Virus record (IMG/VR): IMGVR_UViG_3300030102_004839
Location: 1 to 22,700 of that record
Reading direction: 5' to 3' (one strand)
Source: a virus
DNA length: 22,700 nucleotides
Both the position numbers and the translations under genes were made by a program. Under the pieces are notes generated by a model. It saw only the letters and a list, made by a program, of their open reading frames with translations, searched no databases and was not told the origin of the DNA. Positions within the stretch are counted from its first letter, which is position 1. Each line of letters opens with the position of its first letter. Positions 1-22,700 of the stretch are shown piece after piece.

Positions 1-111
1 ATTAATTTTCCTGTACCAATTTTATTTAAGACTAATGTTAATACTGCTTTTACTACAGAGCAGATTACAGCTATCACTGTGTTTCATAGTGGCGGAAAAA
101 ATACTCAGTAG
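1..111 (+). CDS. C-terminal end of an upstream virion-module gene (partial)
   Basis: An open frame enters from the left edge and stops at TAG 109-111, giving 36 residues that end in SGGKNTQ. The following gene's ribosome-binding site (GGAGG, 111-115) overlaps this stop, so the two are co-transcribed. Nothing in the short tail identifies a family. Its position just upstream of head-tail adaptor genes suggests a head or connector protein, but that is inference from gene order only. Confidence 0.7.
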   Translation: MNFPVPILFKTNVNTAFTTEQITAITVFHSGGKNTQ

Positions 112-120
112 GAGGTTTAA

Positions 121-1056
121 GTGGCTTTCTCAGGCACAAGTACATTCGAGAAATTTCTCTCGATCGATGATATTATAACTGAATCTTTTGAAAGATTAGG
201 ATTTTTTGATTATTCAGGTAATGATTTAAGATCAGCTAGACGTTCTTTAAATATAATGTTTCAAGAATGGGATAATAGAGGTTTGCATTTTTGGGAAGTT
301 GCAAGAACTGCGATCACACTTGCATCTGGTCAAAACGAATATACAATTTTTAGATCACCATCCGACGGAAATGCAAATGGAATAACTACAACTTTATCTT
401 CTGGTATTTCATCAAGTGCAACAACTATCCCTGTTTCATCTACAAAAAATATGAATGATACAGGTAAAATTAGAATTAATTCTGAAGTAATTATTTACAC
501 TTCTATTTCTGGTAATAATATAATCTGTGATGCATCAGGACGTGGATCAGATGGAACTACGGCTGCAGGTCACTCATCAGGTGATGCTGTCACAAATTTT
601 GTAGATATGGTTTCAGATATTCTTGAAGCAAGTTTTAGAAATACAAGTGATGTCGACACACCTTTGTCAAAAATTAACAGATCTCAATATCAAGCTTTTT
701 CAAATAAAAGTTCAACAGGTCAACCATCACAATATTTTGTACAAAGATTTATAGATAAAGTCACTATTACCTTATATCTAACACCTGGAGATACACAGGC
801 AGGTAATTTTATTTATTTTTATTATGTTAAAAGAATTCAAGATGCAGGTAAATACACTAATGAAGCTGACGTAGTTAATAGATTTGTACCCTGTATGTGT
901 GCAGGTTTAGCTTATTATATGGCTATGAAAAAAGCTCCACAAAGAATACAAGAAATGAAATTAATTTATGAAGACGAATTGCAGAGAGCTTTACAAGAAG
1001 ATGGTTCAGCTGCTAGTGTTTTCATTTCACCTAAAACTTATTATCCGGAGATATAA
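121..1056 (+). CDS. Adaptor-like head-tail connector protein with inserted beta domain
   Basis: This is a 311-residue protein starting at GTG 121, chosen because GGAGG at 111-115 sits five bases upstream and the next gene overlaps its stop. Residues about 13-60 form a helical opening (IITESFERLGF, then FQEWDNRGLHFWEV). A C-terminal helix (VPCMCAGLAYYMAMKK) is followed by a short tail. This layout is the one seen in podovirus tail adaptors of the P22 gp4 / phage SU10 adaptor type, which join portal to tail. Residues about 85-157 are an extra Thr/Ser/Gly-rich beta segment ending in GRGSDGTTAAGHSSGDAV, a module common in phage tail proteins and apparently inserted in the adaptor. The role as connector is inferred from layout and position next to a second adaptor-like protein; no catalytic motif is expected or seen. 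Confidence 0.6.
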   Translation: MAFSGTSTFEKFLSIDDIITESFERLGFFDYSGNDLRSARRSLNIMFQEWDNRGLHFWEVARTAITLASGQNEYTIFRSPSDGNANGITTTLSSGISSSATTIPVSSTKNMNDTGKIRINSEVIIYTSISGNNIICDASGRGSDGTTAAGHSSGDAVTNFVDMVSDILEASFRNTSDVDTPLSKINRSQYQAFSNKSSTGQPSQYFVQRFIDKVTITLYLTPGDTQAGNFIYFYYVKRIQDAGKYTNEADVVNRFVPCMCAGLAYYMAMKKAPQRIQEMKLIYEDELQRALQEDGSAASVFISPKTYYPEI

Positions 1057-1427
1057 TGGCTAAATTTGCAAAAGGAAAATACGCACTAGCAATATCAGAT
1101 AGAAGTGGTCAAGCTTTTAAATGGAGCGAGATGGTCACAGAATGGAATGGTGCCTTTGTGCATATTTCAGAATACGAACCTAAACAACCACAATTAGAAC
1201 CTAAACCTTTTGTAGCTGACCCACAAGGTTTAGAACAAGCAAGACCTCAACGTTTTCCATCTGATCAAATAGGTGGTGGAAACATGGTAGCTAGTTTAAC
1301 TTTACCTGGAGATTTTGCATTTCAAGATTTAAGTAATAATAGTATGGTGCCTGAAAATCCATCTGTTATAAATACTAGAAGAGAAGCACAAATGTTATTA
1401 GGAGAGGTGACGGTAAGTATATCATGA
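1056..1427 (+). CDS. Small conserved virion-module protein, function unknown
   Basis: This is a 123-residue protein whose ATG overlaps the previous stop as TAATG (1054-1058), so translation is probably coupled. It begins MAKFAKGKYALAISDRSG and carries a polar Pro-rich centre (SEYEPKQPQLEPKPF, residues about 38-52). There is no signal peptide, membrane segment or Cys pair. From memory, proteins of this shape occur between the two adaptor genes in uncultured marine podoviruses, but their role is not known to me. A minor structural or assembly role is inferred from the sandwiched position only. Confidence 0.6.
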   Translation: MAKFAKGKYALAISDRSGQAFKWSEMVTEWNGAFVHISEYEPKQPQLEPKPFVADPQGLEQARPQRFPSDQIGGGNMVASLTLPGDFAFQDLSNNSMVPENPSVINTRREAQMLLGEVTVSIS

Positions 1428-2074
1428 CATACGCTGAATTAGTTCAAAAAATTAGAGATTACACAGAAGTATCAAGTACAGTTTTAACTGATACTATTGT
1501 AAATGGTTTCATAGAAGATGCAGAATTTAGAATTTTAAGAGATGTGGATTCCGATAATAACAGAAGATATGTGACAGCAAATTTAATAGCAGGCACTAGG
1601 TTTATAGATACACCGACTGATTTGTTAGTAATTAGATCTGCTCAAATTGTAGATTCTGATGGCACAGCAGAGCCTGATAACAGAGATTTTTTACAATATC
1701 GAGATACTAGTTTTATGTCAGAATTTAACAATCTCAATAGTCAAGGAGTGCCAAAATATTATAGCAATTGGGATGAAAATACAGTCGTGGTTGCTCCGAT
1801 TCCAGATCAAACATATACAATCCAGTTAAATTATATCTTGAAACCAGCTGGATTATCTAGTAGTAATACTACTACATATTTAAGTCTGCAATTTCCCAAC
1901 GGACTTTTGTATGCGTGTCTAGTTGAGGCATATGGATTTCTAAAGGGACCAAATGATATCTTGCAATTATACGAAGGAAAGTATAAACAAGTTATCGAAG
2001 GCTTCTCAATAGAACAAATGGGAAGAAGAAGACGAGATGAATATCAAAGTGGTGTTCCTCGTATAGGTAAATAG
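1424..2074 (+). CDS. Head-tail adaptor protein (SU10/P22 gp4-like)
   Basis: This is a 216-residue protein starting at ATG 1424 in a four-base ATGA overlap with the gene before. The N-terminal helix pair (MTYAELVQKIRDYTEV, then IVNGFIEDAEFRILRDVD) leads to a beta core with the typical adaptor wording: DTPTDLLVIRSAQI, FLQYRDTSFMSEF, GVPKYYSNWDENTVVVAP, and YTIQLNYILKP. A C-terminal helical segment (LLYACLVEAYGFLKGP) follows, then a basic tail (MGRRRRDEYQSG). This order matches the phage adaptor family that forms a dodecameric ring under the portal in short-tailed phages such as SU10. It would act in virion assembly as the docking surface for the nozzle. Family recognition is from motif memory, not from a search. 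Confidence 0.72.
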   Translation: MTYAELVQKIRDYTEVSSTVLTDTIVNGFIEDAEFRILRDVDSDNNRRYVTANLIAGTRFIDTPTDLLVIRSAQIVDSDGTAEPDNRDFLQYRDTSFMSEFNNLNSQGVPKYYSNWDENTVVVAPIPDQTYTIQLNYILKPAGLSSSNTTTYLSLQFPNGLLYACLVEAYGFLKGPNDILQLYEGKYKQVIEGFSIEQMGRRRRDEYQSGVPRIGK

Positions 2075-2086
2075 GAGAAAATAAAA

Positions 2087-2530
2087 ATGGCTATAACACA
2101 AGCAATTGCAAATACTTTTAAAAAACAACTATTAGAGGGTGGACAAAAATTAACTAACTCTAGTGGTGATAAGTTTAAAATAGCTCTTTATACTTCTTCA
2201 GCAACTCTAAACAGCAGCACAACTTCTCTGTTGACTAGCTCCCCTACACATGAAGTTCCAAACTCTGGAACATATACAGCAGGTGGTGGATTACTAGTTA
2301 ACTTAGCAACCTCATTAACAGCTGGTGTAGCAAGATGTGATTTTGCAGACAGATCGTTTACAAACGTCACTATAACTGCTAGAGGAGCTTTAATCTATAA
2401 CACATCAAACTCAAATGCAGCGGTATGTGTTTTAGATTTTGGAGGAGATAAAACAGCTACATCTGGAGTATTCACAATTCAGTTCCCGGCTAACACATCA
2501 ACAGCAGCGATTCTAAGGATCTCTGGTTAA
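2087..2530 (+). CDS. Conserved phage structural protein, probably tail- or fibre-associated
   Basis: This is a 147-residue protein with a good ribosome-binding site (GGAG, 2074-2077) ahead of ATG 2087. It starts with a helix (ITQAIANTFKKQLLEGG) and then becomes an all-beta, Ser/Thr-rich chain with the recognisable run FKIALYTSSATLNSSTT, then NSGTYTAGGGLLVN, TITARGALIYNTSNSNAA and VLDFGGDKTATSGVFTIQF. That set recurs in marine tailed-phage structural proteins of unassigned position in the particle. It sits between the adaptor and a repeat-rich tail protein, which fits a tail-tip or fibre component. No enzymatic motif is visible. Confidence 0.62.
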   Translation: MAITQAIANTFKKQLLEGGQKLTNSSGDKFKIALYTSSATLNSSTTSLLTSSPTHEVPNSGTYTAGGGLLVNLATSLTAGVARCDFADRSFTNVTITARGALIYNTSNSNAAVCVLDFGGDKTATSGVFTIQFPANTSTAAILRISG

Positions 2531-2533
2531 TCG

Positions 2534-2550
2534 TAGGAGGTAAACTCCTA
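2534..2550 (+). promoter_or_regulatory. Shine-Dalgarno sequence inside a hairpin that reaches the start codon
   Basis: A perfect six-base inverted repeat, TAGGAG (2534-2539) and CTCCTA (2545-2550) with loop GTAAA, pairs the ribosome-binding site of the next gene with the bases just before and including the A of its ATG. Folded, it would hide the start. Whether it is regulatory or incidental to a strong GGAGG site cannot be told from sequence. Confidence 0.4.
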
Positions 2551-3515
2551 TGGCATCCGGAACTTGGGGTACTGGCTTTTGGGGTCAAAACCAATGGAAC
2601 GATTCAGCTGACTCGACTAATGCAGTCACGGGTATTGCCCTTACTGCAACTTTAGGAGACGAGACAACTGTTGGTGAAATTAATACTGGTTGGGGAAGAC
2701 TCAACTGGAACGATGGTGCGTGGGGTATTGCTGGTAATGTTTTATTATCTAGTTTACCTATAACAGCTGCATTAGGTAATGAAACTATTTCTATAAGTGT
2801 TTCACCTGGCCCAGCTACAAACAACAATCAACTTTTATCAGCCGCTCTTGGAAATGAAATAATAGATATTCAAACAATAGCATTTCCAACAGGGATTGCT
2901 ATGACTGGAGCTTTAGGAACTGCTGACGCAAGTCCTGATGCAATGGTCACTGGTATTTCAATGGCCATGGGTCTTGGTTCAGTAGATGCATTTAACCAAA
3001 CTGGTTGGGGTAGACAAGGTTGGAACGTAAATGCATGGGGTGTTGAAGGTCAGTTTGCAACAGCAACTCCAACTGGAATTGCAATGACAGCAGCGCTAGG
3101 TAATGAAACAATTACTGGTTCTGCTACTTTAACTCTTAATACTCTAAACGTAGCACAAGCAACTCTTGGTAATGTAGATCCTGCACCTGATGCAATGATC
3201 ATTGGTAATGCAATGACAGCAACATTAGGAAGTGCTTTAGGTTTAGCAGGAGCTGGAGCTAATCCAACAGGAATTCCAATGACTGCTGCTTTAGGAACTT
3301 CTGTAGCTGTTCCTGGCGTAGATGTGCCAGTCACAGGTTTACCTATGAATAATCAATTATCATCAGCATTTAATATAGTTATTCATATTGATGTTCAACT
3401 TACAGGAAATGCCTTGACTATGAACCAAGGAAGTGGTAGTGCTTTAATCTGGAATGAAGTAAATACAGGTTCAGCGCCTATTACACCTCCAGGATGGCAA
3501 GAGGTGGCTGCATAA
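2550..3515 (+). CDS. Repeat-built tail or fibre structural protein
   Basis: This is a 321-residue protein starting at ATG 2550, seven bases after GGAGG-type site 2536-2540. It is made of about nine diverged beta repeats of the form TG-I/L-x-MT-A-x-LG-N/T, for example ALTATLGDET, PITAALGNET, AMTAALGNET and PMTAALGTSV. Two tryptophan-rich signatures (GWGRLNWNDGAWG, GWGRQGWNVNAWG) and an opening GFWGQNQWN punctuate them. It is low in charged residues and has no Cys, as expected for an exposed trimeric or decorative phage protein. The unit length varies between copies, pointing to expansion by duplication followed by drift. It lies among tail genes and is probably a tail-surface or fibre protein; no receptor-binding domain can be named. 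Confidence 0.55.
   Translation: MASGTWGTGFWGQNQWNDSADSTNAVTGIALTATLGDETTVGEINTGWGRLNWNDGAWGIAGNVLLSSLPITAALGNETISISVSPGPATNNNQLLSAALGNEIIDIQTIAFPTGIAMTGALGTADASPDAMVTGISMAMGLGSVDAFNQTGWGRQGWNVNAWGVEGQFATATPTGIAMTAALGNETITGSATLTLNTLNVAQATLGNVDPAPDAMIIGNAMTATLGSALGLAGAGANPTGIPMTAALGTSVAVPGVDVPVTGLPMNNQLSSAFNIVIHIDVQLTGNALTMNQGSGSALIWNEVNTGSAPITPPGWQEVAA
2638..3436 (+). repeat. Diverged coding repeats (TG-x-MTAALG unit)
   Basis: The protein repeat is partly visible in DNA. The clearest pair is around 2762-2788 and 3085-3111, both reading ACAGC-(T/A)-GC followed by TTAGGTAATGAAAC or its near copy CTAGGTAATGAAAC. Other copies near 2900, 3205, 3280 and 3330 have drifted at third positions and in spacing. 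Confidence 0.5.
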
Positions 3516-3541
3516 TGAGTTTGACAGAAACTCATATTTTT
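3515..3541 (+). terminator. Possible weak intrinsic terminator between tail genes
   Basis: ATGAGTTT (3515-3522) and AAACTCAT (3528-3535) form a perfect eight-base inverted repeat with loop GACAG, followed by a run of five T (3537-3541). The stem has only two G-C pairs, so any termination would be partial. The structure begins in the stop region of the repeat protein and also covers a 14-codon open frame (3515-3559). Confidence 0.4.
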
Positions 3542-3570
3542 AATAAAATGAACGAATAAGGAATTAAAAA

Positions 3571-4272
3571 ATGGCGAATTCTACATCTGCTAGTTTAAAA
3601 CTCACAGTACAAGCAACCGGTGAAAACTCGGGAACTTGGGGTCAAATTACAAATACAAATTTATTAATTTTAGAACAAGCTATTGGTGGTTTTACAACTT
3701 TTAACTTAACTAATGCCAATAGATCTTTAACTTTTTCAAACGGTGCTGTTTCTAATGGTAAAAATGATGTTATTAAATTAACAGGAACATTAGCTGCAAA
3801 CAGAACAGTTAGTATCCCAGACGGAGTTGAAAAAACTTATTTTGTACAAGACGCGTGTGATCATGCTGGAAATACTTTAACTTTTAAAACTTCTTCAGGA
3901 ACAGGTGTTCTTTTATGTGAAGGTAATTGTTATACTTTATATTCAGATGGAACAAACGTTGAAAAAGTAAATGAATATAGAAAATGGAGAGCCGTTTCAG
4001 CAGCTGAAACAGTTCAAGCTGGAGCTCAACTTTTAGTAAATACAAATGGTGGAGGAGTGACAATTACACTACCTGCTTCACCTAGTTTAGGGGACACAGT
4101 TTCATTCGTAGACCAAGGTTATGACTTTAACTCTAATGCACTAACAGTTGGAAGAAACGGATCTAATATAGTAAACGCAGCAGCAGACCTTACAGTTAAT
4201 ACTCAAGGTGCAGCTTTTGAATTAGTATTCTCAGGCGATGCTACAACAGGATGGACTTACACGGAGAAATAA
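3571..4272 (+). CDS. Tail fibre-like structural protein
   Basis: This is a 233-residue protein, with AAGGA at 3558-3562 upstream of ATG 3571. The N-terminus (LKLTVQATGENSGTWGQITN) followed by LLILEQAIGG is a familiar opening of marine phage tail proteins. The middle is beta-rich. Residues about 140-233 form a second unit, with VQAGAQLLVNTNGGGVTITL and then FELVFSGDATTGWTYTEK, like the small beta domain at the ends of many cyanophage and pelagiphage fibre proteins. The next gene, a collar protein, follows after one base, so the two are probably partners in the tail or fibre. Its exact location in the particle is not shown by the sequence. Confidence 0.55.
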   Translation: MANSTSASLKLTVQATGENSGTWGQITNTNLLILEQAIGGFTTFNLTNANRSLTFSNGAVSNGKNDVIKLTGTLAANRTVSIPDGVEKTYFVQDACDHAGNTLTFKTSSGTGVLLCEGNCYTLYSDGTNVEKVNEYRKWRAVSAAETVQAGAQLLVNTNGGGVTITLPASPSLGDTVSFVDQGYDFNSNALTVGRNGSNIVNAAADLTVNTQGAAFELVFSGDATTGWTYTEK

Positions 4273-4273
4273 T

Positions 4274-4840
4274 ATGGCAAATTACGAAGCAACAAAATAT
4301 AATTTTGACGGTGCAAACCTTACAGGTATTGAGGGAATCCCAACAGGAACTATTGTTCCATGGTCAGATTCTTCTGTGCCAACAGGATTTTTAGAATGTA
4401 ATGGTGCATTAGTTTCAAGATCAACTTACTCTGCATTATTTGCAATCATAGGTACAACTTACGGAGCTGGAGATGGTGCAACTACTTTTAAATTACCTGA
4501 TTTACAAGATAACGTACCACTAGGTAAATCTGGTACAAAAGCTTTAGCTTCAACAGGTGGAGCAAACACAGTTCAAACTACTGGAAACGTTGCAGGTTCA
4601 ACAGCAAATGCAACTTTAACAACTGCACAACTTGCATCACACAGTCACCCAGTCCCTGTAGGAGGATTTAGTCCAGGAGGCCCTTCAGGTGCTGAGTCAA
4701 ATCCATCTAAAAGTACCGGAGGTTCAGGTAGCGCAGGTTCTGGAACAGGTCACTCTCACAACATGAGTGCTAACTTTGTAGGAGATTCAACATCAGTAGT
4801 ACAACCGTATATAGCTTTGATATACATAATTAAGACGTAG
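4274..4840 (+). CDS. Tail collar domain protein
   Basis: This is a 188-residue protein from ATG 4274, chosen because GGAG at 4263-4266 is well placed and the frame before it has no sensible start. Residues about 24-87 match the phage tail collar domain: GTIVPWSDSSVPTGFLECNG, then TYSALFAIIGTTYGAG and TFKLPDLQDNVPLG. Two HxH motifs follow (H123/H125 in ASHSHPV and H160/H162 in GTGHSHN), separated by a Gly/Ser-rich stretch. HxH sites in T4-type fibres hold metal ions that lock trimers, so a similar role is plausible here. The chain ends hydrophobic (VVQPYIALIYIIKT), as is usual for this family. It is a short receptor-side tail or fibre component. Confidence 0.82.
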   Translation: MANYEATKYNFDGANLTGIEGIPTGTIVPWSDSSVPTGFLECNGALVSRSTYSALFAIIGTTYGAGDGATTFKLPDLQDNVPLGKSGTKALASTGGANTVQTTGNVAGSTANATLTTAQLASHSHPVPVGGFSPGGPSGAESNPSKSTGGSGSAGSGTGHSHNMSANFVGDSTSVVQPYIALIYIIKT

Positions 4841-4850
4841 GAGAAAAAAT

Positions 4851-5198
4851 ATGGCAACTAATTCAACATGGACAGTAATATTTGATGATAAAAAAATTAT
4901 CAAACAAAGTGGTGATGCAGCTGGAACTGCATACGATATTGTTGACGATAACTTTTGGGGATTAGCAAAATGGTCAAATATTTGGGCTATCCAATATGGA
5001 ACATCTAATCCTAATGATGCAGTAGAATACAGAGATGATACTCCTCACTCTAATTGGGAGTCTTCAAACTTAGGTGATTTTCAAGATTTCATTACTAGAT
5101 GGGACTCAGCTCATTTAGCACAATTACAAGCTGATTGGGATGCAGACGATAGAGATGAGTCAGAAAAAGGTTCAAGACCTACTTCATACACATCTTAA
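4851..5198 (+). CDS. Hypothetical acidic protein at the end of the tail gene run
   Basis: This is a 115-residue protein with GGAG at 4840-4843 before ATG 4851, overlapping the previous stop. It is acidic and tryptophan-rich (DNFWGLAKWSNIWAIQYG, then QADWDADDRDESEKG) and has no membrane segment or Cys. I do not recognise the family. It follows the collar gene closely and so may be a tail accessory or chaperone. Its stop TAA (5196-5198) interlocks with the stop of the minus-strand gene (complement of 5195-5197), so it marks the exact left edge of the minus-strand cassette. Confidence 0.55.
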   Translation: MATNSTWTVIFDDKKIIKQSGDAAGTAYDIVDDNFWGLAKWSNIWAIQYGTSNPNDAVEYRDDTPHSNWESSNLGDFQDFITRWDSAHLAQLQADWDADDRDESEKGSRPTSYTS

Positions 5199-5647
5199 TT
5201 AAAAGATTTTACAAAAGCTTCTGATCCTAGTCTTCTTCTAGATCCTTCTATAAAATAAACAACGTTTACTTTATGTGTAAGCCAAAATTCAAGTAGCCAA
5301 TCTAAAACTTTAACAGACATTTCTTGTCCACAAGGTTTAAATTCATAATACTCAAATTCTTTGTGTTTTTGTATACTAATTATTATTTTACTTTTTTCTG
5401 GTTTTAACCACTCTGGAAAAATTTCTGGATGTAATAACCAAGAACATGAAAATGTTTTACAAGGATCTAAAGGCCTATCTTTATATATTGTACAACCCCC
5501 TTGTCCTTTTGTTTTATTTAAAAAATGACAATATCTACCTGGGAAAAATTTAAATCCATAAGCTTCTCCTGGTAGCCATCCTTCACAACATTTAGTACAG
5601 TCACCACATTGTCTAGCTGGCAAAGGTTTTATCTTAGATTCATCCAT
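5195..5647 (-). CDS. CxxCxxCC cysteine cluster protein (YkgJ-like putative metal-binding)
   Basis: This is a 150-residue protein. The N-terminal motif C14-x2-C17-x2-C20-C21 (QCGDCTKCCEGW) followed by C40, C52, C63 and C68 matches the YkgJ-type family, described as a putative zinc- or iron-chelating domain. The part CTIYKDRPLDPCKTFSC is also typical of that family. No membrane segment is seen, so it should be cytoplasmic. It is the last gene of the minus-strand cassette, overlapping the dioxygenase gene upstream by 19 bases, so translation is probably coupled. Its neighbours all need Fe(II), so a role in supplying or guarding iron is tempting, but that is inference; the biochemical role of the family is poorly known. 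Confidence 0.75.
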   Translation of the reverse strand: MDESKIKPLPARQCGDCTKCCEGWLPGEAYGFKFFPGRYCHFLNKTKGQGGCTIYKDRPLDPCKTFSCSWLLHPEIFPEWLKPEKSKIIISIQKHKEFEYYEFKPCGQEMSVKVLDWLLEFWLTHKVNVVYFIEGSRRRLGSEAFVKSFN

Positions 5648-6222
5648 GAAGTTAGTATATATTTTTTACCTGATAAAGGTGAATTACCTCTATGCACGTA
5701 AGGAAAAGCAGCAGGCCATATAACAATTCTACCTTTTTTAGGCTTAACTCTTTTTGAAAAATGAAGAAATTCAGTTTCGCCTCCTTCTTCTACGTCATTT
5801 AAATATACAGTATACACAAAAGCTCTTGCTTCGTTTTCATAACCTTGACCATGTTCAATGTGCCAAACATGATAGCCCTCTGTTGGTAAGGTCTTTTGAA
5901 TTTTTAAACTAGTATAATGAAAATCTTTATTGTCATACGCCTCTTGTGCACCTGTGTGCTTAATATAATGTCTAAAAGCTATTTCATAATTCATAATTAA
6001 TGGTATGAGTTCAGATCTCCAAATATGTATGTTATGAGAATTACCAAAAAATTGTTGATCTTGTTTTGTTAAAACACTTGTATCTTCAGATGAAATACGA
6101 TTTAAAGTTTTATTAAACTTATCTTGATTTTCAAAAAGATTTATAGCTTTATCACATTCTTGAGAAGTTATATAGCCATCGTACACACCTATAAAATTAT
6201 CTATGTTAACTGTTTTTTCCAT
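5629..6222 (-). CDS. 2-oxoglutarate/Fe(II) dioxygenase, prolyl-4-hydroxylase-like
   Basis: This is a 197-residue protein with the double-stranded beta-helix order of the prolyl 4-hydroxylase group. The signature is EGYHVWHIEHG, then FVYTVYLNDVEEGGETEF, then KKGRIVIWPAAFPYVHRG and GKKYILTSW. The expected iron ligands are H121, E123 and H177; K187 would hold the 2-oxoglutarate carboxylate. The usual second ligand is Asp, so the HxE here is a variation that may alter activity. The product would be a hydroxylated protein side chain or small molecule; the substrate is unknown. It overlaps both neighbours (19 and 22 bases). A GAGGA site lies rather far upstream of the start, so coupling probably matters. 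Confidence 0.85.
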   Translation of the reverse strand: MEKTVNIDNFIGVYDGYITSQECDKAINLFENQDKFNKTLNRISSEDTSVLTKQDQQFFGNSHNIHIWRSELIPLIMNYEIAFRHYIKHTGAQEAYDNKDFHYTSLKIQKTLPTEGYHVWHIEHGQGYENEARAFVYTVYLNDVEEGGETEFLHFSKRVKPKKGRIVIWPAAFPYVHRGNSPLSGKKYILTSWMNLR

Positions 6223-6770
6223 TTTTTTATTTTTTCCTCATCTTCTTTTGTTGATTGTATCTGTTGAGTTTTAAGAACTTGATCATATGCATGATGTTTA
6301 AATAAACCATTTTTATTAACATAATGTAAAAAAACTTGAGCCATTCCGTCTCCTTTGTATTTACCAGGTCTTTGATGTTTTTCAAATAAACCATTATATA
6401 AAACCGCATCTCCTTCTTCTAATTCAAATTTTTTGCCTTCTACTATAATAGGCCAATTATCATATTTCTTTATACAAGAAGTCACAGATATTTCACAAGA
6501 AGGTCTATCTACATGTTTGGGTAAACTACCCCCTAATACGTAGTATCGCCAATATGCATAAGTAGGAAATAATTCTAATTTACTTTCTTGAGATACTAAA
6601 GGTAATTTTATATCTAATAAAGCAGTCATTAAAGGATCATAATACCATGCAGGTGAAAAAGACTGTGGGTCTATTGTCCAATCTTTAGAATGATCTAACT
6701 TGTTATAACAATACTTTTGTAAAAGTATTAATTCATTTTCAGATAAAAAATTCTTAATTAACGAAGCCAT
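6201..6770 (-). CDS. 2-oxoglutarate/Fe(II) dioxygenase-like protein
   Basis: This is a 189-residue protein. The core reads YAYWRYYVLGGSLPKHVDRP, then a cupin-like beta run (EISVTSCIKKYDNWPIIVEG), then LEEGDAVLYNGLFEKHQRPG. Likely iron ligands are H86, D88 and H132. The basic residue that usually binds 2-oxoglutarate is less certain (R134 or a nearby Lys). This arrangement, with EGDAVLYNG before the distal His, is seen in small phage and bacterial oxygenases of unknown substrate. The C-terminus is highly charged and helical (QSTKEDEEKIKKWKKQ). There is no clear ribosome-binding site, and the start lies inside the upstream gene (13-base overlap), which suggests reinitiation. Confidence 0.72.
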   Translation of the reverse strand: MASLIKNFLSENELILLQKYCYNKLDHSKDWTIDPQSFSPAWYYDPLMTALLDIKLPLVSQESKLELFPTYAYWRYYVLGGSLPKHVDRPSCEISVTSCIKKYDNWPIIVEGKKFELEEGDAVLYNGLFEKHQRPGKYKGDGMAQVFLHYVNKNGLFKHHAYDQVLKTQQIQSTKEDEEKIKKWKKQLT

Positions 6771-7309
6771 GATACTATGCTATACCTTTTACCTTTTTCA
6801 ATTGGTTTAATACTGTGTGGATACATAAAATTACTAGGAAAAAAAATTACAGATCCTTTAGTAAGTTTAAATGATTTTACTTCTTTATAGTGTTGGTCTA
6901 CAAATATTAAATCTCCTCCAACATATTCATCATTAAGATTTAAGATAACACTTAATAATCTAGGACTATAAGTAGTATCATCTAAATGTGCATTGTATTT
7001 GCCTCCTGCGCTATATTTTAATAAATCTATTTGATCTACTTTATCACTACTCATCAAAGGAAATTTACCTTTATAAAAAACAAGCAATCTTTCAATTTCA
7101 TTTTTAATAAAATTCCAATAAAATATATTAGTAGGAGTATCTGGATTTAAAGAATAACCATTTACATTTCTAATATTTTTATCAATATTATTTTTACCAA
7201 TATATAAATTAGACTTAGCTTTTTTATCAATAAATACAGTTAACTTATTTATAAAATCAGGATTTAAAATCTTAGGTATGTGAACAATAGCTTCTAAATA
7301 ATCTTTCAT
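6758..7309 (-). CDS. 2-oxoglutarate/Fe(II) dioxygenase, prolyl-4-hydroxylase-like
   Basis: This is a 183-residue protein with the most canonical oxygenase motifs of the cassette. They are LLKYSAGGKYNAHLDD, then LLSVILNLNDEYVGGDLIF, then KGSVIFFPSNFMYPHSIKPI and KGKRYSIVSWL. The iron triad is H108, D110 and H165, and R175 should bind 2-oxoglutarate. This is the textbook HxD...H...R pattern of P4Hc-type hydroxylases. It is Lys/Asn/Ile-rich, reflecting very AT-rich DNA. The start overlaps the previous gene's end by four bases. The substrate is not shown; related phage proteins are usually left as oxygenases of unknown target. Confidence 0.9.
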   Translation of the reverse strand: MKDYLEAIVHIPKILNPDFINKLTVFIDKKAKSNLYIGKNNIDKNIRNVNGYSLNPDTPTNIFYWNFIKNEIERLLVFYKGKFPLMSSDKVDQIDLLKYSAGGKYNAHLDDTTYSPRLLSVILNLNDEYVGGDLIFVDQHYKEVKSFKLTKGSVIFFPSNFMYPHSIKPIEKGKRYSIVSWLR

Positions 7310-7797
7310 ATTTTTTTATGATCGTAAAATATATTAAGTGTATGTCTAGGAGAGCTTTCTCCTAAAGCCTGTAGATCTGTATGAACATTGTTTTTTCCAT
7401 CAAAAAATAAAGCCCTGTTTTCTACAAAACCTACATAAGTATTTAAATTATTATTTTTATCATAAAAACCTGTGCCATTATAAACTAACTCTTGACCTTT
7501 TAAATAAAGGATAAAATTATAATCTGGACCATCAGTATGGCTCATTACTTTTTTATTATTGTGCCTAAGATGATATGAAGCGTGTTTTAAATGCAAATCT
7601 TTTTTTCTAAAAAATGCTTGTTTTATTTTAGCAAACATCCATTCATTATCTTTATCTTTTTCAAAAGTGTGCCTAAATCCGTATATACCATTTTCATTTG
7701 TCATAATTTTTAAATCTAGTTTTGATATATTACTTTGAATAATATTAAATTCTTTTTCTGAAAAAAAGTTATCTATTACTTGTAAATTAAGACTCAT
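7306..7797 (-). CDS. 2-oxoglutarate/Fe(II) dioxygenase-like protein (tandem paralogue B)
   Basis: This is a 163-residue protein whose opening (LQVIDNFFSEKEFNIIQ) is the usual first helix of small phage dioxygenases. H87 and D89 (MSHTDGPDYNFILYLKG), H139 (NNVHTDL) and R151 (PRHTLNIFY) give the complete ligand set. The stretch YNGTGFYDKNNNLNTYVGF then ENRALFF aligns clearly with the gene immediately upstream, so the two are tandem paralogues. There is an 11-base overlap with that gene. No substrate can be assigned. Confidence 0.82.
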   Translation of the reverse strand: MSLNLQVIDNFFSEKEFNIIQSNISKLDLKIMTNENGIYGFRHTFEKDKDNEWMFAKIKQAFFRKKDLHLKHASYHLRHNNKKVMSHTDGPDYNFILYLKGQELVYNGTGFYDKNNNLNTYVGFVENRALFFDGKNNVHTDLQALGESSPRHTLNIFYDHKKI

Positions 7798-8317: not shown

Positions 8318-8357
8318 ATTATATAACCCATTATATGCTGCAAAAATTAAAATTCAA
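8318..8357 (-). promoter_or_regulatory. Sigma-70-type promoter for the dioxygenase operon
   Basis: Read on the minus strand, TTGAAT (8352-8357) lies 16 bases before a perfect TATAAT (8330-8335). A second perfect TATAAT follows at 8318-8323. Transcription would begin some tens of bases before the start codon at 8290. The -35 element lies inside the first codons of the divergent structural gene, so the two units share this 44-base gap. Confidence 0.6.
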
Positions 8358-15086: not shown

Positions 15087-15087
15087 T

Positions 15088-15830: not shown

Positions 15831-15833
15831 AAA

Positions 15834-18800
15834 ATGGCTGACAAGTCTAATTGGTATGATTTTCTAATCCCAGAGCCTGAAACTAAAGAAGCTATTCAAA
15901 AAGGTATTGATGAAGCATTAAAGACAGTTAGGATTTTAAAAAGCGAAGGTCCTCAAGCTTTAGAAAGAAGACGTCAAGAAGAAAGATTTTTAGATCAAGG
16001 TTTTAGTGATGAAGAATCTAAATCTTTGGCAGCTGATGCAATAGCTAACGATAAAAGATTTAGAATAATTCCCAAAGATATTAGTTTAATAAGTAAAGCA
16101 CAGGCCATCGAACCACCTGATGATTTTGATGTATCTTCAGATTTAGACAAAGTAAAACCACCTAAAGTTGAAGAAGTGAAAAAAATAGGAATGGGTAGTA
16201 AAGATGACTATGAAGTTGGATTAAGTGAGTCAATAACAGGTGCTTTAGCATCTACTTTAATTAAAATTCCAAAAGGTGTAATTAATTTTGGAACATTAGT
16301 GACTGATGCATTAACACAAGATGGAGTACCAGTAGATAAAAGTTTAACAGAAAGATTTAATACAGAATTTGAAAAAACAATTTTAGGTCAGATAGAAGCA
16401 CAAGCAGAAGAATCTGCAAGAGCTACAGCCATAGGACATTTAACAGAGGCTTTTGGACAATTGTATGGTGGATATAAAATAGCTGGAAAAACAGCTATAC
16501 CAGTTGTTGAATATGCTTCAAGAAAAGCAAGACAGCTAGGCCCTATATTAGTTAATGCTATTAAAACTGCACGATATGGAAAAACAGTTAACAATAAAAA
16601 TTTAAGCAAAGCATTTGATAAAGCTAAAAATTTAAATAAAGCAAGTAAGTTTGATAAATTTGCAGCAGTCACAGTTGGTGGTGGATTTGGTACAGCAGCT
16701 GTTGTAATGAAACAAGAAGACATTGGAACATTAGGAGATATAGACGCTTTAGATTTTTTAGGCACAGGTCAAGATAGAGAAAAGAAAGAGACTGCTAATG
16801 ATGATGCATTTAGACAATTAAATAATAAATTTAAATTTGGAGCTGAACTAGCATTTCCTGTTATACCTTTTGTATATGGTACAGGTAAAGTAGCTAAAAT
16901 GTTAGCAACAAAAGGTAAAGATCTTGCATTTAGTGATTCATCAATAGAACGATGGGTGGATAAATTTGTAGGTAAACCATTTAGATCTAGAAGTAATAAA
17001 CCACAACAAATATTTGATGGTATACAAAGATTAGAAGGTAAAAAAAGTTCTGTTAAAATTTTAGCAGATGATGCAGCTAGAAGTTTTGATGATGTATTAA
17101 AAAAAATATCTAGAAATAGCACAAAAGCTTCTGAAGCTATTCAAGATCCTAATCAATTATCAGAGATGTTTTCTAAATTTTTATTATCAACAGATGATGT
17201 AGTTAAAAAAAATAATATTGTATTTAAAGGTTTCAGTAAAAGAACTTTAAACTCTTTTAGAAAAGCAATGGATGATTTAGGAGTTAATAAAAATCAAACT
17301 GATGAATTAATTAATAATGGTATTGATTTTAGAATAGCCACAGCAACTCTTAAAAATACTATTGCAAAAAATAAAAATACTAACGTTGCTACTAAGGAGT
17401 TAAATCAAATATTAAATGATAGAGTTAGATATAATTTGGGCGCAGACTATAAAATTTTTGACATGAACATGGGATTATTTGATGGGTTTAAACCTACTCT
17501 AGCTGCAAAAGAAGAAGTAGCTAGAATTATTCAAAAGTATCATAGACGAAATGGTGAAAGAAAATTTTCTATAGATGATGCCATGATTGTTGTTAATAAT
17601 ATTTTAAAAAATAGAACATTAAATCCTGTGACTAGAACTCCAGAGTTTCCAATAGGCACAGTTAATATATTAGATGATCAAGCTGTTCAGATGAAAAATA
17701 TTGGCAATAATATTACTGCTGGAGGTAAATTTAAGGCCGATAAAACAGGTGGGTTAATACAAAAAAAATCAGATTTAGAAGCATTTAATACTTTGTTTGG
17801 TAAATATACAAACGCAAAAAATGTTATTTATAACGTAATGACAGATCTTGCAGAAATTGTTGCAAGAGATGAGTTTTATACAAAATTATTAAAAGATAAT
17901 GATGCTTTATTAGCTAAAGGAGAAAGAGGTTTATTTTATCCTAATTATAATAAAGCTTTAATTAATTTAGGAAAAGGTGGTGAGATATCTAAACGAACAA
18001 AATTTGAAACAAGATTATCTGATGAAGTTTATAGTTCTCCTTTGGATAATAAATTTACACTTAAAATTTTTGAAGATGCTATTAAAGCTGGAGACAAAGT
18101 AGTAGCTAGCGCATTGACTAGATCATTACCATATAGAGCTATGATGTTAATACCAAAAGGTATATCACAAGCAGGTAAAACTATTTTAGGTCCTTTTACT
18201 CACATAAGAAATTTTTTCTCTGCTGTATTTACAACAGTTCACAGCGGTAATATTTTAATTCCACCAGCAAAGTTAGCTGAGTTTGCTAATCAAGCTAGAA
18301 AGTCTGTACAACCACAATTACTTTATAGAATGACTGGTAATCCTAGATTTAGAAATCAACCTGAAGATCAAGCATTGTATAGATTTTTATTAGAAGAAGG
18401 AGTGACCAATCAAAACGTAGTGGCAAGAGATATAGAAGGACTGTTTGGTGACATCACGCTAGCAGGGCAAAGAGATGAAACAGCAGAAGTATTTTTTAAT
18501 AAATTAGTAGATACTACTACTAAAAAATTTAAAAAATTATATGGTGTAGCTCAGGACTTATACACAGCTGAAGATGATGTATTTAGAATTGTAAATTTTT
18601 TAGCAGAAGGATATAAATTAAAAGAAGCTTATAGAACAGCTATTAAAAATGGAATAAAAAATGCAGACGGCAGTGTAGTTAAAATGCCTGGTGATTTAGA
18701 GATTATGAAAGAATCTGCTAAAATAATTAGAGAGACTGTTCCTAATTATGCATACGTATCAGACTTTGTAAAAGGTATTAGAAGATCTCCACTAGGAAGC

Positions 18801-20168
18801 TTTGCATCTTTTCCAGCAGAAATATTTAGAACAGGTGGTAATACAACTATGCTTGCACTAAAAGAACTTAAAGATCCCATAAGAGAAACTATTGGAATGA
18901 AAAGGTTAACAGGTCAAGCAATAACATATACCTTCTTTCCAATCGCAGCGATGAAAGCCGGTTCTGCTTTGTATGGTGTCACTAGAGAAAAACTAACAGC
19001 GATGAGAGAAATTTTACCTGTATGGTCAGAAGATAATACAATTATTGGTGTGTATGAAGATGGTCAATATAAATACATAGATTTTAGTCATGGTTTTTTT
19101 TACGATACTTTAGTTTCACCTGTAAGCACCGTTCTTTCTAACGTACAAAAAGCTAAAACTGCAAACGAAGATGATCCACTTGTCGTTGGTTTTGTAAATG
19201 GTTTAACTAAAGCTATGGGTAAAGTATTAGAACCATTCTTTTCTGAGTCTATTTGGTTTGGTGCCGTGGCAGATATTATGATTAGAAATGGTGTTAAAGA
19301 TAATGGTAGCCCTGTTTGGAATCCAGATGATAGTATCATGACTAAGTGGACTAAATCTACACAACATGTTGCATATACGTTATCTCCTGGATCATTACCA
19401 CAGGTAAGAAGATTAATTAATGCTATCGAAAAAAAATCTCAAAAAGGTGTAAATTATGAAGTACCAGATGAATTATTAGGGTTCTTAGGTTTTAGAAAGG
19501 TGCCATTAGATATTGAATCAAATTTAAATTTTAAAATTACAGATTTTCAAGAATCGCAAAGAAATGAGTCTAAAAAAATATTTGAAGGTTTAAGAACAGG
19601 TGATCCTGTAGAAGATCCTAATGCAGTTATTAGACAATACTTTAACGCAAATAAATCTTACTACGAAGACATGAGTAAATTAAGAAGAGTATATGATGCA
19701 GTTAAAACTTTAGGTATGAGAGATGAAAAAATTGAAGAACTGTTTGGTAAAAGAAATGAAGGACCACTGTATGGAGATATAGAAAATAATAGTTTTTTTC
19801 CATTATTAATTACTAGAGGACAAATTATTGGAATAGAAGAACAAGCAGAAGATAAAAAAATACCTAATATTCTTAATAGAAATGTTTTAAGAATAATTGA
19901 AAGAATGGAAAGAGATATGCAGAGATTAAGATTAAACAAAGATTTTGATTTAGATATAAATAATTATCTAATAAAAACACAAGAACAAGTATCTGAATTA
20001 CAAACACCACCTTTACCAAAAACTGTATTAGATGCTAATCCTAACCCGCAGGTCATTCAAACCTCCCAAGTTAATCAAATTAATCAAGGATTAACAATGA
20101 CCGAAAATGCCTTATTGTCTGATGATGAAAAAATGATAAGGTTAAGACAAAGAAACATGATAACATAA
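15834..20168 (+). CDS. Very large internal virion / DNA-ejection protein (gp16-like role)
   Basis: This is a 1,444-residue protein, the largest in the window, with GGGGAG seven bases before ATG 15834. It is mostly helical and Lys/Asn-rich, without a signal peptide. Hydrophobic or amphipathic stretches occur near residues 132-165 (SITGALASTLIKIPKGVINF), 333-350 (FGAELAFPVIPFVYGTGK), 764-800 (PYRAMMLIPKGISQAGK) and 1029-1050 (ITYTFFPIAAMKAGSALYGV). One giant protein following a gp14-like protein at the end of the structural module is the arrangement of T7 gp14-gp15-gp16, whose largest member spans the envelope during DNA entry. No lysozyme, protease or nucleotide-binding motif was recognised by eye. 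The next gene begins in a TAATG overlap. Confidence 0.58.
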   Translation: MADKSNWYDFLIPEPETKEAIQKGIDEALKTVRILKSEGPQALERRRQEERFLDQGFSDEESKSLAADAIANDKRFRIIPKDISLISKAQAIEPPDDFDVSSDLDKVKPPKVEEVKKIGMGSKDDYEVGLSESITGALASTLIKIPKGVINFGTLVTDALTQDGVPVDKSLTERFNTEFEKTILGQIEAQAEESARATAIGHLTEAFGQLYGGYKIAGKTAIPVVEYASRKARQLGPILVNAIKTARYGKTVNNKNLSKAFDKAKNLNKASKFDKFAAVTVGGGFGTAAVVMKQEDIGTLGDIDALDFLGTGQDREKKETANDDAFRQLNNKFKFGAELAFPVIPFVYGTGKVAKMLATKGKDLAFSDSSIERWVDKFVGKPFRSRSNKPQQIFDGIQRLEGKKSSVKILADDAARSFDDVLKKISRNSTKASEAIQDPNQLSEMFSKFLLSTDDVVKKNNIVFKGFSKRTLNSFRKAMDDLGVNKNQTDELINNGIDFRIATATLKNTIAKNKNTNVATKELNQILNDRVRYNLGADYKIFDMNMGLFDGFKPTLAAKEEVARIIQKYHRRNGERKFSIDDAMIVVNNILKNRTLNPVTRTPEFPIGTVNILDDQAVQMKNIGNNITAGGKFKADKTGGLIQKKSDLEAFNTLFGKYTNAKNVIYNVMTDLAEIVARDEFYTKLLKDNDALLAKGERGLFYPNYNKALINLGKGGEISKRTKFETRLSDEVYSSPLDNKFTLKIFEDAIKAGDKVVASALTRSLPYRAMMLIPKGISQAGKTILGPFTHIRNFFSAVFTTVHSGNILIPPAKLAEFANQARKSVQPQLLYRMTGNPRFRNQPEDQALYRFLLEEGVTNQNVVARDIEGLFGDITLAGQRDETAEVFFNKLVDTTTKKFKKLYGVAQDLYTAEDDVFRIVNFLAEGYKLKEAYRTAIKNGIKNADGSVVKMPGDLEIMKESAKIIRETVPNYAYVSDFVKGIRRSPLGSFASFPAEIFRTGGNTTMLALKELKDPIRETIGMKRLTGQAITYTFFPIAAMKAGSALYGVTREKLTAMREILPVWSEDNTIIGVYEDGQYKYIDFSHGFFYDTLVSPVSTVLSNVQKAKTANEDDPLVVGFVNGLTKAMGKVLEPFFSESIWFGAVADIMIRNGVKDNGSPVWNPDDSIMTKWTKSTQHVAYTLSPGSLPQVRRLINAIEKKSQKGVNYEVPDELLGFLGFRKVPLDIESNLNFKITDFQESQRNESKKIFEGLRTGDPVEDPNAVIRQYFNANKSYYEDMSKLRRVYDAVKTLGMRDEKIEELFGKRNEGPLYGDIENNSFFPLLITRGQIIGIEEQAEDKKIPNILNRNVLRIIERMERDMQRLRLNKDFDLDINNYLIKTQEQVSELQTPPLPKTVLDANPNPQVIQTSQVNQINQGLTMTENALLSDDEKMIRLRQRNMIT

Positions 20169-20368
20169 TGTCTATTGAACCAAAAACAACTAGAGAACAC
20201 ATAGTATCACTATATGGACACATCAAAGGTGTCAAAAAAGATATTTCACATATGCATAAAGGTATTCACGAATTGGGCGGCAAGATAGACAAAATCTATT
20301 GGGTATTATTGGGTACGGTGGGGGCTGTATCACTAGTTTTAATTGAATGGCTTATATCCATTGTTTAA
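20168..20368 (+). CDS. Small membrane protein, possibly holin or XhlA-like
   Basis: This is a 66-residue protein overlapping the previous stop (TAATG). Residues 1-42 are charged and helical (HIVSLYGHIKGVKKDISHMH, then KGIHELGGKIDK). Residues 43-66 form one hydrophobic segment (IYWVLLGTVGAVSLVLIEWL) ending in ISIV. A coiled coil followed by one membrane helix at the C-terminus is the layout of XhlA-type proteins and some small phage holins. Being the last gene of the late unit supports a lysis role, but no endolysin is present in this window. Its 3' end overlaps the 3' end of the helicase gene on the opposite strand by 17 bases. Confidence 0.55.
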   Translation: MSIEPKTTREHIVSLYGHIKGVKKDISHMHKGIHELGGKIDKIYWVLLGTVGAVSLVLIEWLISIV

Positions 20369-21791
20369 GTTCTTCACCCATTACATCATTAGCTATATTC
20401 ATTTTATTTCTTAAAGCTTTTTGAATTTTAATATCTATTGTATCTTCAGCAACTAAATCAATGTAGGTCATCGGCTTTGTTTGACCAATACGATCAATAC
20501 GGGCTTCTGACTGTAAACGTTTTTCTAAATCATAACCATTAGAATAATATATCATTGTGCTTGCAGATGTTAATGTAATACCATAACCACCTGTGCCAGT
20601 AGTTCCTACAAAAAATCTACACTCAGGGTTTTCTTGAAATTTTTTTATATTCTTTTGTCTATCCTCTGTAGCCGTAGCTCCGTAATAATCTACTACAGAA
20701 TTTTCTCCAAAATGTTTTTTTATTTCTTCAATAATTCTTTTACAGTCTTCAACATAATAAGACCAGATAACAGCTTTTCCTGATATTTCCCAAAGAATAT
20801 CCATAAGTTCAGTTAACCTATTACATGGAAGTTGTTGAGACTTACCATCATCGGTCGCGTGATATCCACAAGATATTTGATGAAGTCGTAATAGTTGAAC
20901 CATTACTGTTGAAGTAGAACAAACTTTACCCTCTAATTGAGAGATAGCATATTTTCTCATCTCATTGTAAAGCCTTTTTTGAACACCTGTTAATTCTATT
21001 TTACGAGTTAAAAAAGTTTTCTTTGGTAAATCTAAACAATCATCTTTTAAAACACGTTCACTAAATAATTTTATCTTTGCTTCTAGTTCAGGTATATTTC
21101 TTTTGTTAGGACCTACAGGCACACTAACAGATCTAGAACCTAAGTTCATAGTTTTCATAATACAATAGTGAGCTCGGTATGCCCAGAAAGAATCAAAACC
21201 TAATAGATGATTATCTAAAAAAACAGCTTGACTAAATAAATCTAAAGGTGAATTAGTAATAGGTGAACCAGTTAATATTCTTCTATACTTGGCTAAAGGT
21301 TTTAGTGTCATTATATTTCTAGTTCTATTTGCTGTAGGTGTTTTTATTGTTGTTGATTCATCGATAGCCATCATAGCTTTGTGACAGGATAAAAAACGTC
21401 TGGCAAATTCAGTAGCTTTTGGATAAGAAAAAGCTTCAACATTCATAATTAAAATATGAAAGTCTGTACCTGTTTCAAATAATGTATTTAATTTTTTTAT
21501 TTGTTCTATTGAGGAATTTGATGTTTCCCACAATACTACTTTTTTTTCTATGTGATTTACCATGTGTGTAGGTATTTCACCTTCATACCAGTTTTTATAA
21601 ACACCTTTAGGAGCCACTAATAAAAGGCCATTTATCTCCCCTTTGTCATACAAAATAGAAGCATTATCTATTAAGACTTTAGATTTACCGGTACCCATTT
21701 CCATAAAATAGGCAAAATATTCTTTATTCCAAGAACGCTCTAATGCTTTTAACTGATGCGCATATGGCTTAGTTTTAAATTTATAATTCAT
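20352..21791 (-). CDS. SNF2-type superfamily 2 helicase / DNA-dependent ATPase
   Basis: This is a 479-residue protein with complete helicase motifs. They are: AHQLKALE (residues 11-18); Walker A MGTGKSK (32-38); motif Ia LLLVAPKGVYKNW; motif II as D144-E-S-T (MMAIDESTTIK) where DEAH is usual; motif III ILTGSPITNSP (172-182); motif V GTTGTGGYGITLT (396-408); and motif VI QSEARIDRIGQ (427-437). Motifs V and VI of this wording mark the Swi2/Snf2 family. It should use ATP to translocate on duplex DNA; in phages such proteins act in replication, recombination or transcription control. It is transcribed against the structural module and has its own promoter, so it is probably an early or middle gene. 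Confidence 0.9.
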   Translation of the reverse strand: MNYKFKTKPYAHQLKALERSWNKEYFAYFMEMGTGKSKVLIDNASILYDKGEINGLLLVAPKGVYKNWYEGEIPTHMVNHIEKKVVLWETSNSSIEQIKKLNTLFETGTDFHILIMNVEAFSYPKATEFARRFLSCHKAMMAIDESTTIKTPTANRTRNIMTLKPLAKYRRILTGSPITNSPLDLFSQAVFLDNHLLGFDSFWAYRAHYCIMKTMNLGSRSVSVPVGPNKRNIPELEAKIKLFSERVLKDDCLDLPKKTFLTRKIELTGVQKRLYNEMRKYAISQLEGKVCSTSTVMVQLLRLHQISCGYHATDDGKSQQLPCNRLTELMDILWEISGKAVIWSYYVEDCKRIIEEIKKHFGENSVVDYYGATATEDRQKNIKKFQENPECRFFVGTTGTGGYGITLTSASTMIYYSNGYDLEKRLQSEARIDRIGQTKPMTYIDLVAEDTIDIKIQKALRNKMNIANDVMGEELKQWI

Positions 21792-21792
21792 G

Positions 21793-21820
21793 TTTACTTT
21801 TGCTTTCTAATTGTTATATA
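21793..21820 (+). promoter_or_regulatory. Possible promoter for the rightward gene
   Basis: TTTACT (21793-21798) and TATATA (21815-21820) are 16 bases apart on the plus strand. The -10 is palindromic and would be shared with the opposing helicase promoter, so the two would compete. Matches are modest. Confidence 0.28.
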
Positions 21821-21843
21821 TTATGTGAAAGATAAAAAGTCAA
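21815..21843 (-). promoter_or_regulatory. Probable sigma-70 promoter for the helicase gene
   Basis: On the minus strand TTGACT (21838-21843) is followed after 17 bases by TATATA (21815-21820), with TATAAC close by. The helicase start lies about 25 bases further. The -35 element touches the start codon of the divergent gene. Confidence 0.45.
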
Positions 21844-22178
21844 TGAGCAAAGTTTATTTAATTCAAGACATACCAGGCACCAGCAAAGGTGAGCCTAAAT
21901 ATAATATTGTAGGAGCACAAAAGTATGGTGATATTGTGTCTTTACTTCCAGAATTTTCACAAATGATTCACTCACCAGGACCTTTAGTTATGAAACTTAG
22001 AACGCTTCTAAAAAATTATACTGAAGATGATTATCTTTTATTGTCTGGTGACCCAGCCATCATAGGTGTAGTATGTTCTTTAGTTTCAGACACAACTAAT
22101 GGTAAATACAAACTTTTAAAATGGGACCGTCAAGAAAAAACTTACTATCCTATTGAAGTAAATATTTATCAAAAATAG
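21843..22178 (+). CDS. Conserved hypothetical phage protein
   Basis: This is a 111-residue protein from ATG 21843. An in-frame ATG at 21756 is rejected because it would put a hydrophobic leader inside the antisense start of the helicase and across the promoter region. The product reads MSKVYLIQDIPGTSKGEPKY, then IVGAQKYGDIVSLLPEFSQM, PLVMKLRTLLKNYTEDDYLL and LLKWDRQEKTYYPIEVN. It is a compact alpha/beta protein with no obvious catalytic residues; I recall similar proteins in marine phages without a known role. There is no strong ribosome-binding site. Confidence 0.68.
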   Translation: MSKVYLIQDIPGTSKGEPKYNIVGAQKYGDIVSLLPEFSQMIHSPGPLVMKLRTLLKNYTEDDYLLLSGDPAIIGVVCSLVSDTTNGKYKLLKWDRQEKTYYPIEVNIYQK

Positions 22179-22206
22179 TTGACACTCAAAAATATATCCA
22201 TATATT
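22179..22206 (+). promoter_or_regulatory. Strong sigma-70-type promoter, with palindromic possible operator
   Basis: TTGACA (22179-22184) is a perfect -35, followed after 16 bases by TATATT (22201-22206), five of six matches. AATATAT (22191-22197) and ATATATT (22200-22206) form a perfect inverted repeat around CC that covers the spacer and the whole -10. A repressor bound there would block the promoter. The start codon at 22268 is about 55 bases after the expected transcript start. Confidence 0.65.
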
Positions 22207-22267
22207 ACAAATTGCGAAAAGATATTATTATTAATGATTAAACTAACAAAAACATATGGAGAAAGAT

Positions 22268-22700
22268 ATGACTATCGACCTACGAAAAGATGCACCAAAT
22301 CAGGTGTCAAACGTCAATCCCGACGAACTCTCAAACGAAATTAATACACTTCAAGAAATCAAACAAGAAGTTATTAATCAAGAAACAAAATTAAAAGAGT
22401 TAAAAGAAAGAGAAAAATATTATTCTAATATTATTATTCCTGATCTAATGAATCAGTTAAATCTTAAAACTTTAAAATTAAAAGACGGATCTGAAATATC
22501 CGTCAAGGATGTATTTGGCGCTTCTATAATTGCAGCTAAAAAAACAGAGGCGTACGACTGGCTTCGGAATAACGGACTGGGAGCAATTGTGAAAAATGAA
22601 GTCACAGTTAAATTTGGTCTGAACGAAGATAACAAGGCGGAGCAATATGCTTCACTTGCACGAGGACAAGGTTATGAACCCGATCGGAAAATTGCAGTTC
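22268..22700 (+). CDS. Conserved phage protein, N-terminal part (runs off the window)
   Basis: An open frame from ATG 22268 continues past the right edge (144 codons seen). GGAG at 22258-22261 sits six bases upstream. Residues about 20-60 are a coiled coil (ELSNEINTLQEIKQEVINQE, then KLKELKEREKYYSNI). Then come IIPDLMNQLNLKTLKLKDGS and EISVKDVFGASIIAAKKTEA, and the motif YDWLRNNGLGAIVKNEVTVK. I recall this layout in podoviruses of marine bacteria near replication genes, without a proven function. Its first and last parts use CGA and CGG arginine codons and more C/G at third positions than the neighbours. Confidence 0.7.
   Translation, partial: MTIDLRKDAPNQVSNVNPDELSNEINTLQEIKQEVINQETKLKELKEREKYYSNIIIPDLMNQLNLKTLKLKDGSEISVKDVFGASIIAAKKTEAYDWLRNNGLGAIVKNEVTVKFGLNEDNKAEQYASLARGQGYEPDRKIAV

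Follow-up and report, generated by a model that had tools for sequence, protein, structure and literature searches.

Why One Word Is Missing

The first 22,700 nucleotides of the IMG/VR virus record IMGVR_UViG_3300030102_004839, referred to here as the window, raise the question of why a phage should lack the word GTWAC altogether while GTSAC is common in its DNA. GTWAC comprises GTAAC and GTTAC, which are mutual reverse complements and form a palindromic site resembling those of type II restriction enzymes; GTSAC comprises GTCAC and GTGAC and differs from it in the centre base alone. The window forms the left 78% of a 28,960-bp contig, and a scaffold gap of 10 N begins at contig position 22,701, exactly where the window stops. 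Among annotated phages, the closest is Pelagibacter phage HTVC027P (MN698241), which was isolated on the SAR11 strain HTCC1062 and has a genome of 57,595 bp, so that the contig covers roughly half of the phage genome. Structural and replication genes are common to the contig and HTVC027P at high identity (82% at the amino acid level in a gene for a 654-aa protein), and on this gene content the contig can be assigned to the HTVC027P-like pelagiphages. By analogy with HTVC027P and HTVC023P, which both have HTCC1062 as host, the window phage presumably infects SAR11.

Absence of GTWAC from the Window and the Contig

Direct counting identified no GTAAC and no GTTAC in the window, next to 22 GTCAC, 21 GTGAC, 8 GTTAAC, 42 GTAC and 47 GANTC sites. 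A sequence-only reading of the window had reported that GTWAC is absent, that GTSAC occurs about 40 times, that GTTAAC and GTAC are present and that GANTC is not avoided, all of which was borne out by these counts; the GTSAC positions that it had given as examples are correct within 3 bases (760, 1134, 2625, 8668, 8713, 8728, 8734, 10096, 10914, 16299, 17628 and 22601). For the expected numbers two null models were used, a strict one in which synonymous codons were shuffled with the protein and its codon usage kept constant (400 shuffles for the whole contig), and a maximal-order Markov model of the window. The codon shuffle predicts 40.5 GTWAC in the window and the Markov model 29, compared to which the earlier figure of about 45 was slightly high; under the Markov model, GTWAC has the lowest score of all 5-mers (z −6.2). 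For the whole contig, 45.4 sites are expected by codon shuffle (range 35–64, z −10.5), none is present, and the second-lowest 5-mer stands at z −4.4. The sequence-only reading had proposed the rest of the genome and a codon-shuffled control as checks: the remainder of the contig is likewise free of GTWAC, and the control shows no deficit.

GTSAC is the most enriched 5-mer of the contig (45 compared to 18.8 expected by codon shuffle, z +7.3), and the avoidance thus discriminates GTWAC from a word that differs at one base. The exchange is visible in the valine codons preceding a threonine codon (ACN), all 32 of which are GTC (15) or GTG (17) and none GTA or GTT, compared to 404 GTA or GTT among the remaining 474 valine codons (85%), as had been claimed. 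All 4-bp and 6-bp palindromes and those of 5 bp with a W or S centre were scored by codon shuffle, and a palindrome was considered zeroed when it was observed at 6% or less of an expectation of at least 10. Exactly one palindrome, GTWAC, is zeroed in the contig, and GANTC is not part of its set of depleted palindromes. The absence of GTWAC is for practical purposes certain to be real. A literature search on GTWAC found no relevant paper.

The word GTAC is mildly depleted in the genes of the window (40 compared to 68.5, z −4.6) and likewise in HTVC027P (104 compared to 130). Being common to both phages, the depletion of GTAC is apparently unrelated to the GTWAC purge.

A Private and Synonymous Loss

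In related phages, a comparison that the sequence-only reading had also called for, GTWAC was found to be near-normal. The median ratio of observed to expected sites is 0.86 in 252 related loci (codon shuffle), and 80 IMG/VR relatives sharing the 654-aa gene (85–92% amino acid identity) contain about 1381 GTWAC compared to about 1330–1340 expected by the Markov model; a 14,961-bp overlap locus of the contig itself was counted beside these 80. HTVC027P contains 86 sites compared to 94 expected by codon shuffle, has no zeroed palindrome and uses GTA or GTT for 62 of the 73 valines preceding threonine. Because about 250 related loci are near-normal in GTWAC, the loss is private to the lineage of the window phage.

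Codon alignments revealed how the sites were lost. GTWAC is present in at least half of the relatives at 32 aligned sites, none of which is kept in the window and 23 of which were altered synonymously, whereas pooled control motifs in the same alignments were kept in 167 of 247 cases (68%; Fisher p ~1e-14). The replacement depends on the reading frame: Val-Thr pairs are written with GTG or GTC, a leucine codon in the middle becomes G-CTA-C, and words ending in an asparagine or tyrosine codon receive WAT. In the 654-aa gene, aligned with 81 relatives (82–92% amino acid identity), the GTWAC sites of the relatives are exchanged for such frame-specific synonymous codons. A base-calling error is blind to the reading frame, and the replacements therefore represent real sequence evolution under selection. 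The earlier claim that a single palindrome was removed synonymously in every module of the window holds, and the removal is genuine and selected.

The purge postdates the divergence from relatives that are about 84% identical in DNA, and the family avoids hardly any other word; the median number of zeroed palindromes in HTVC027P/023P-like loci is 0. Four relatives recognised by their UvrD-like helicase gene (L346, L347, L348 and L351) are partly low in GTWAC, with 8 sites in all compared to about 31. These are short contigs with no clear GTSAC enrichment, and perhaps represent an intermediate state.

The Same Purge in Other SAR11 Phages

The loss of GTWAC is not confined to the HTVC027P-like phages. 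An HTVC019P-like podovirus contig, L525, which is unrelated to the window phage, has 1 GTWAC in its genes compared to 34 expected and 34 GTSAC compared to 18.7, and belongs to a set of 80 loci with 1923 GTWAC compared to 2043 expected in total. A locus from a second sample, L652, gave an RNA polymerase match identical to that of L525. When the RNA polymerase of L525 was used as a query against the set of 397 SAR11 host genomes searched in this work, three T7-like prophages were identified, in the genomes G107, G178 and G183, each of about 38 kb with 0 or 1 GTWAC and an approximately doubled number of GTSAC. Eight viral contigs akin to these prophages contain in total 0 GTWAC compared to 89 expected. 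At least three groups of SAR11 phages have lost GTWAC, with the group of the window unrelated to both T7-like groups, and the purge is convergent and independent across them.

The three prophages (loci L722 and L728 in G107, L724 and L729 in G178, L726 and L730 in G183) are closely related and complete, and lack GATC, GTWAC and CATG; GANTC is also missing from two of the three. For their clade, the zeroed words are GATC, GTWAC, CATG and GAWTC. Other palindromes are missing elsewhere. In the HTVC019P-like set (L489-L568, L652-L711), every locus of 10 kb or more has no or almost no GATC, and the word counts as zeroed in 81/81, some of these being overlapping pieces of one contig; GANTC is missing in most. 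Further zeroed words in these loci are GAWTC (63 loci), GCWGC (43), CTWAG (23) and TCGA (17), and a few have lost GTSAC or GTWAC. HTVC010P-type loci (L569-L648, L485) show the reverse of the window phage, with 24 GTSAC compared to 315 expected and GTWAC kept, and some of them lack CTWAG or ACGT. Another SAR11 prophage, L467 (G377:C8:15000-34999), is akin to HTVC010P and HTVC028P and has 0 GANTC in 20 kb, where about 39 are expected. It encodes a 385-aa methyltransferase of the N6_N4 type and an MT-A70-like open reading frame (ORF).

Phages isolated on the one strain HTCC1062 avoid different sites: HTVC019P is without GANTC (0 compared to 48.6 expected), HTVC010P is without GTSAC, and HTVC027P and HTVC023P show neither loss. 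Therefore, the purged set tracks phage lineage. Purging by lineage is as expected if lineages differ in the hosts they have passed through.

SAR11 Chromosomes and Restriction-Like Modules

In eight SAR11 genomes, of which 100–180 kb each were sampled, GANTC stands at 0.57–0.78 of expectation and GTWAC at 0.84–1.03. No GTWAC depletion was found in 120 shorter SAR11 genome pieces, in agreement with the eight larger samples. SAR11 chromosomes do not avoid GTWAC, which removes mimicry of host composition as an explanation and disfavours a SAR11-wide CcrM with GTWAC specificity. One CcrM-like methyltransferase is the rule in these hosts: matches to PF01555 above the cut-off are present in 356 of the 397 SAR11 genomes (~90%), typically in open frames of 355–375 aa.

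Compact pairs of a methyltransferase and an uncharacterised ORF, resembling type II systems, were identified in a few SAR11 genomes, each in about 1% or fewer of the 397. In G133 and G377, a putative type II module consists of a methyltransferase and an ORF of 285–293 aa (L470:8774-10607 and L468:9916-11740; also L798 and L799), and its partner ORF was found in G171 and as a decayed remnant in G108. A cluster in G121 and G391 contains an SNF2 helicase, an ORF with a NOV_C domain and a 279-aa methyltransferase (L463:9364-12886; also L476 and L802); it is possibly a defence island, and its methyltransferase is also present in G067. In G288, a 294-aa methyltransferase overlaps an uncharacterised ORF of 185 aa (L472:11190-12625). 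TCGA is somewhat depleted in the G288 genome, with 125 compared to 187. The sporadic occurrence of restriction systems in SAR11 agrees with published counts, in which restriction-modification was reported for 19 of 172 Ca. P. ubique genomes (PMC11066056) and, earlier, a restriction system for one of more than 100 SAR11 genomes (PMC7029224).

Probable Escape from Restriction and Its Alternatives

The phage lineage probably gave up GTWAC because some of the SAR11 hosts that it meets carry a type II restriction specificity for this site, which it thereby escapes. Three features of restriction-site avoidance are present, namely a strong depletion against a null with fixed codons, mainly synonymous substitution, and a palindromic type-II-like site. 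A restriction endonuclease recognising GTWAC, together with a partner methyltransferase, would be present in a minor part of the SAR11 cells, or of cells closely allied to them, in a module that may be mobile and short-lived. Unmodified phage genomes bearing GTWAC would be cut at entry, and lineages passing through such hosts would fix GTG or GTC, CTA, AAT or TAT and similar synonyms until GTWAC is gone. The sequence-only reading had proposed a host methylation or restriction specificity, with a CcrM variant specific for GTWAC as a candidate. Its restriction part is the best explanation, backed by the independent purge of the same site in other SAR11 phages and prophages and of other type-II-like palindromes elsewhere; its CcrM part is without support in the SAR11 hosts sampled.

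Restriction-site avoidance itself is already known, and site elimination has been described as an anti-restriction strategy directed chiefly against orthodox type II sites (PMC6286503). The window phage shares with these cases the all-or-none loss of a short palindrome in a tailed phage with double-stranded DNA; it differs in that the GTWAC specificity is here attributed to no enzyme and in that one purged clade consists of prophages. Several results weigh against restriction escape. Fewer sites are eliminated in temperate phages (PMC6286503), to which a GTWAC-free prophage clade does not conform. No methyltransferase or nuclease of GTWAC specificity, and hence not the host methylase that the sequence-only reading had called for, was identified among the SAR11 genomes searched. 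Five sampled genomes with candidate restriction-modification modules show no GTWAC depletion, and therefore no module was assigned GTWAC specificity. In the lysogens G107, G178 and G183, whose assemblies may be incomplete, CcrM is the sole methyltransferase among PF01555, PF02086, PF00145 and strong PF02384 matches.

An orphan methyltransferase of the CcrM type with GTWAC specificity, which would methylate the host chromosome and whose site the phages would avoid since methylation or hemimethylation disturbs replication or expression, as suggested for GANTC in pelagiphages, is an unlikely cause. CcrM-like genes are near-universal in SAR11, groups of pelagiphages without GANTC exist (PMC9516812), HTVC019P has no GANTC site, and both sites are 5-bp palindromes with a variable centre. 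However, every SAR11 chromosome of which at least 100 kb were sampled is depleted in GANTC and not in GTWAC, and the hosts of the GTWAC-free prophages, with CcrM alone among the methyltransferase families tested, show the same GANTC-type pattern. HTVC027P and HTVC023P avoid neither site, and therefore the phage family tolerates the CcrM of its host. The published GANTC loss in pelagiphages (PMC9516812) resembles the present case as a phylogenetically clustered loss of a variable-centre 5-bp palindrome from SAR11 phages, but the motif is a different one. The window phage does not belong among the phages avoiding the CcrM motif, because its GANTC content is normal and the hosts do not avoid GTWAC.

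It is also rather improbable that the phages themselves encode a GTWAC-specific nuclease for degrading host or rival phage DNA and have purged their own sites instead of methylating them. Avoidance tracks phage lineage and not host strain, as seen for the phages of HTCC1062, and about half of the genome of the window phage is unseen; yet the complete GTWAC-free prophages contain no recognisable restriction nuclease, their candidates being limited to a T7-type endonuclease I and a small ORF, and the GTWAC-normal HTVC019P has homologues of each. A gene comparison found none common to GTWAC-free phages and missing from others, and some phages zero at least four palindromes, which would require several nucleases. 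The wider proposal, that nucleases borne by SAR11 phages are aimed at GTWAC and at the remaining purged palindromes, each lineage being immune through site deletion, is as doubtful; if true, the cause would be conflict between phages rather than host restriction. Phages often track the composition of their hosts, but adaptation to host base, codon or oligonucleotide usage, with no enzyme involved, is very unlikely given the near-expected GTWAC content of all eight host chromosomes, the codon usage fixed in the control and the fact that one 5-mer class alone is at zero; it is refuted for the sampled SAR11 hosts. Least probable, with a negligible chance, is that a modified GTWAC motif misled base calling or assembly. 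Some sequencers do err systematically where motifs are modified, but the replacements are synonymous and depend on the frame (GTG or GTC in frame 0, G-CTA-C, WAT), which excludes such an artefact, and the same pattern is present in prophages within host assemblies and in other contigs.

Genes of the Window

GTWAC is absent across all regions of this HTVC027P-like SAR11 phage window (1–22700; 0 GTWAC and 43 GTSAC). The structural gene block at 121–5198 on the plus strand has homologues in HTVC027P. The 654-aa protein, of a tail or stabilisation type (8335–10299, plus strand), has the highest GTWAC expectation of any gene (9.4 sites); 5.6 sites are expected in a 1444-aa protein with no assigned function (15834–20168, plus strand) and 3.3 in a repetitive 321-aa protein (2550–3515, plus strand), and none of the three contains a site. 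A glycosyltransferase (10966–11913) and its adjoining gene, together at 10966–12781 on the plus strand, are conserved in relatives, and the replication side contains an SNF2-type helicase (20352–21791, minus strand) and a Pam3 gp32-like protein, within 20352–22178; both regions are again free of GTWAC.

A cassette on the minus strand (5198–8290), also without GTWAC, consists of five ORFs resembling 2-oxoglutarate (2OG) oxygenases and one private ORF, and no restriction or methylation gene was recognised in it. The five oxygenase-like ORFs are consecutive (5632–8290), and the cassette they form is variable; at the equivalent position HTVC027P carries related ORFs, one of them annotated as a 2OG-Fe(II) oxygenase. 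The private ORF (5198–5647) codes for a cysteine-rich protein of 150 aa with CxxC and CC motifs, for which no homologue was found among all relatives fetched and no hit in Pfam. A search of the contig for methyltransferase or nuclease genes found none.

Missing Words as a Possible Record of Restriction

SAR11 are the commonest bacteria of the ocean and are commonly portrayed as having almost no restriction systems. Yet many type-II-like specificities have left traces in their phages, each word being entirely lost and the combination of losses varying with the lineage. The window phage, with a single purged site, shows this with particular clarity. If escape from restriction is the correct explanation, the words missing from a phage would tell which restriction enzymes its lineage has met, a GTWAC specificity included, and lists of missing words may help to uncover hidden defence systems of uncultured hosts and to infer the host range of their phages.

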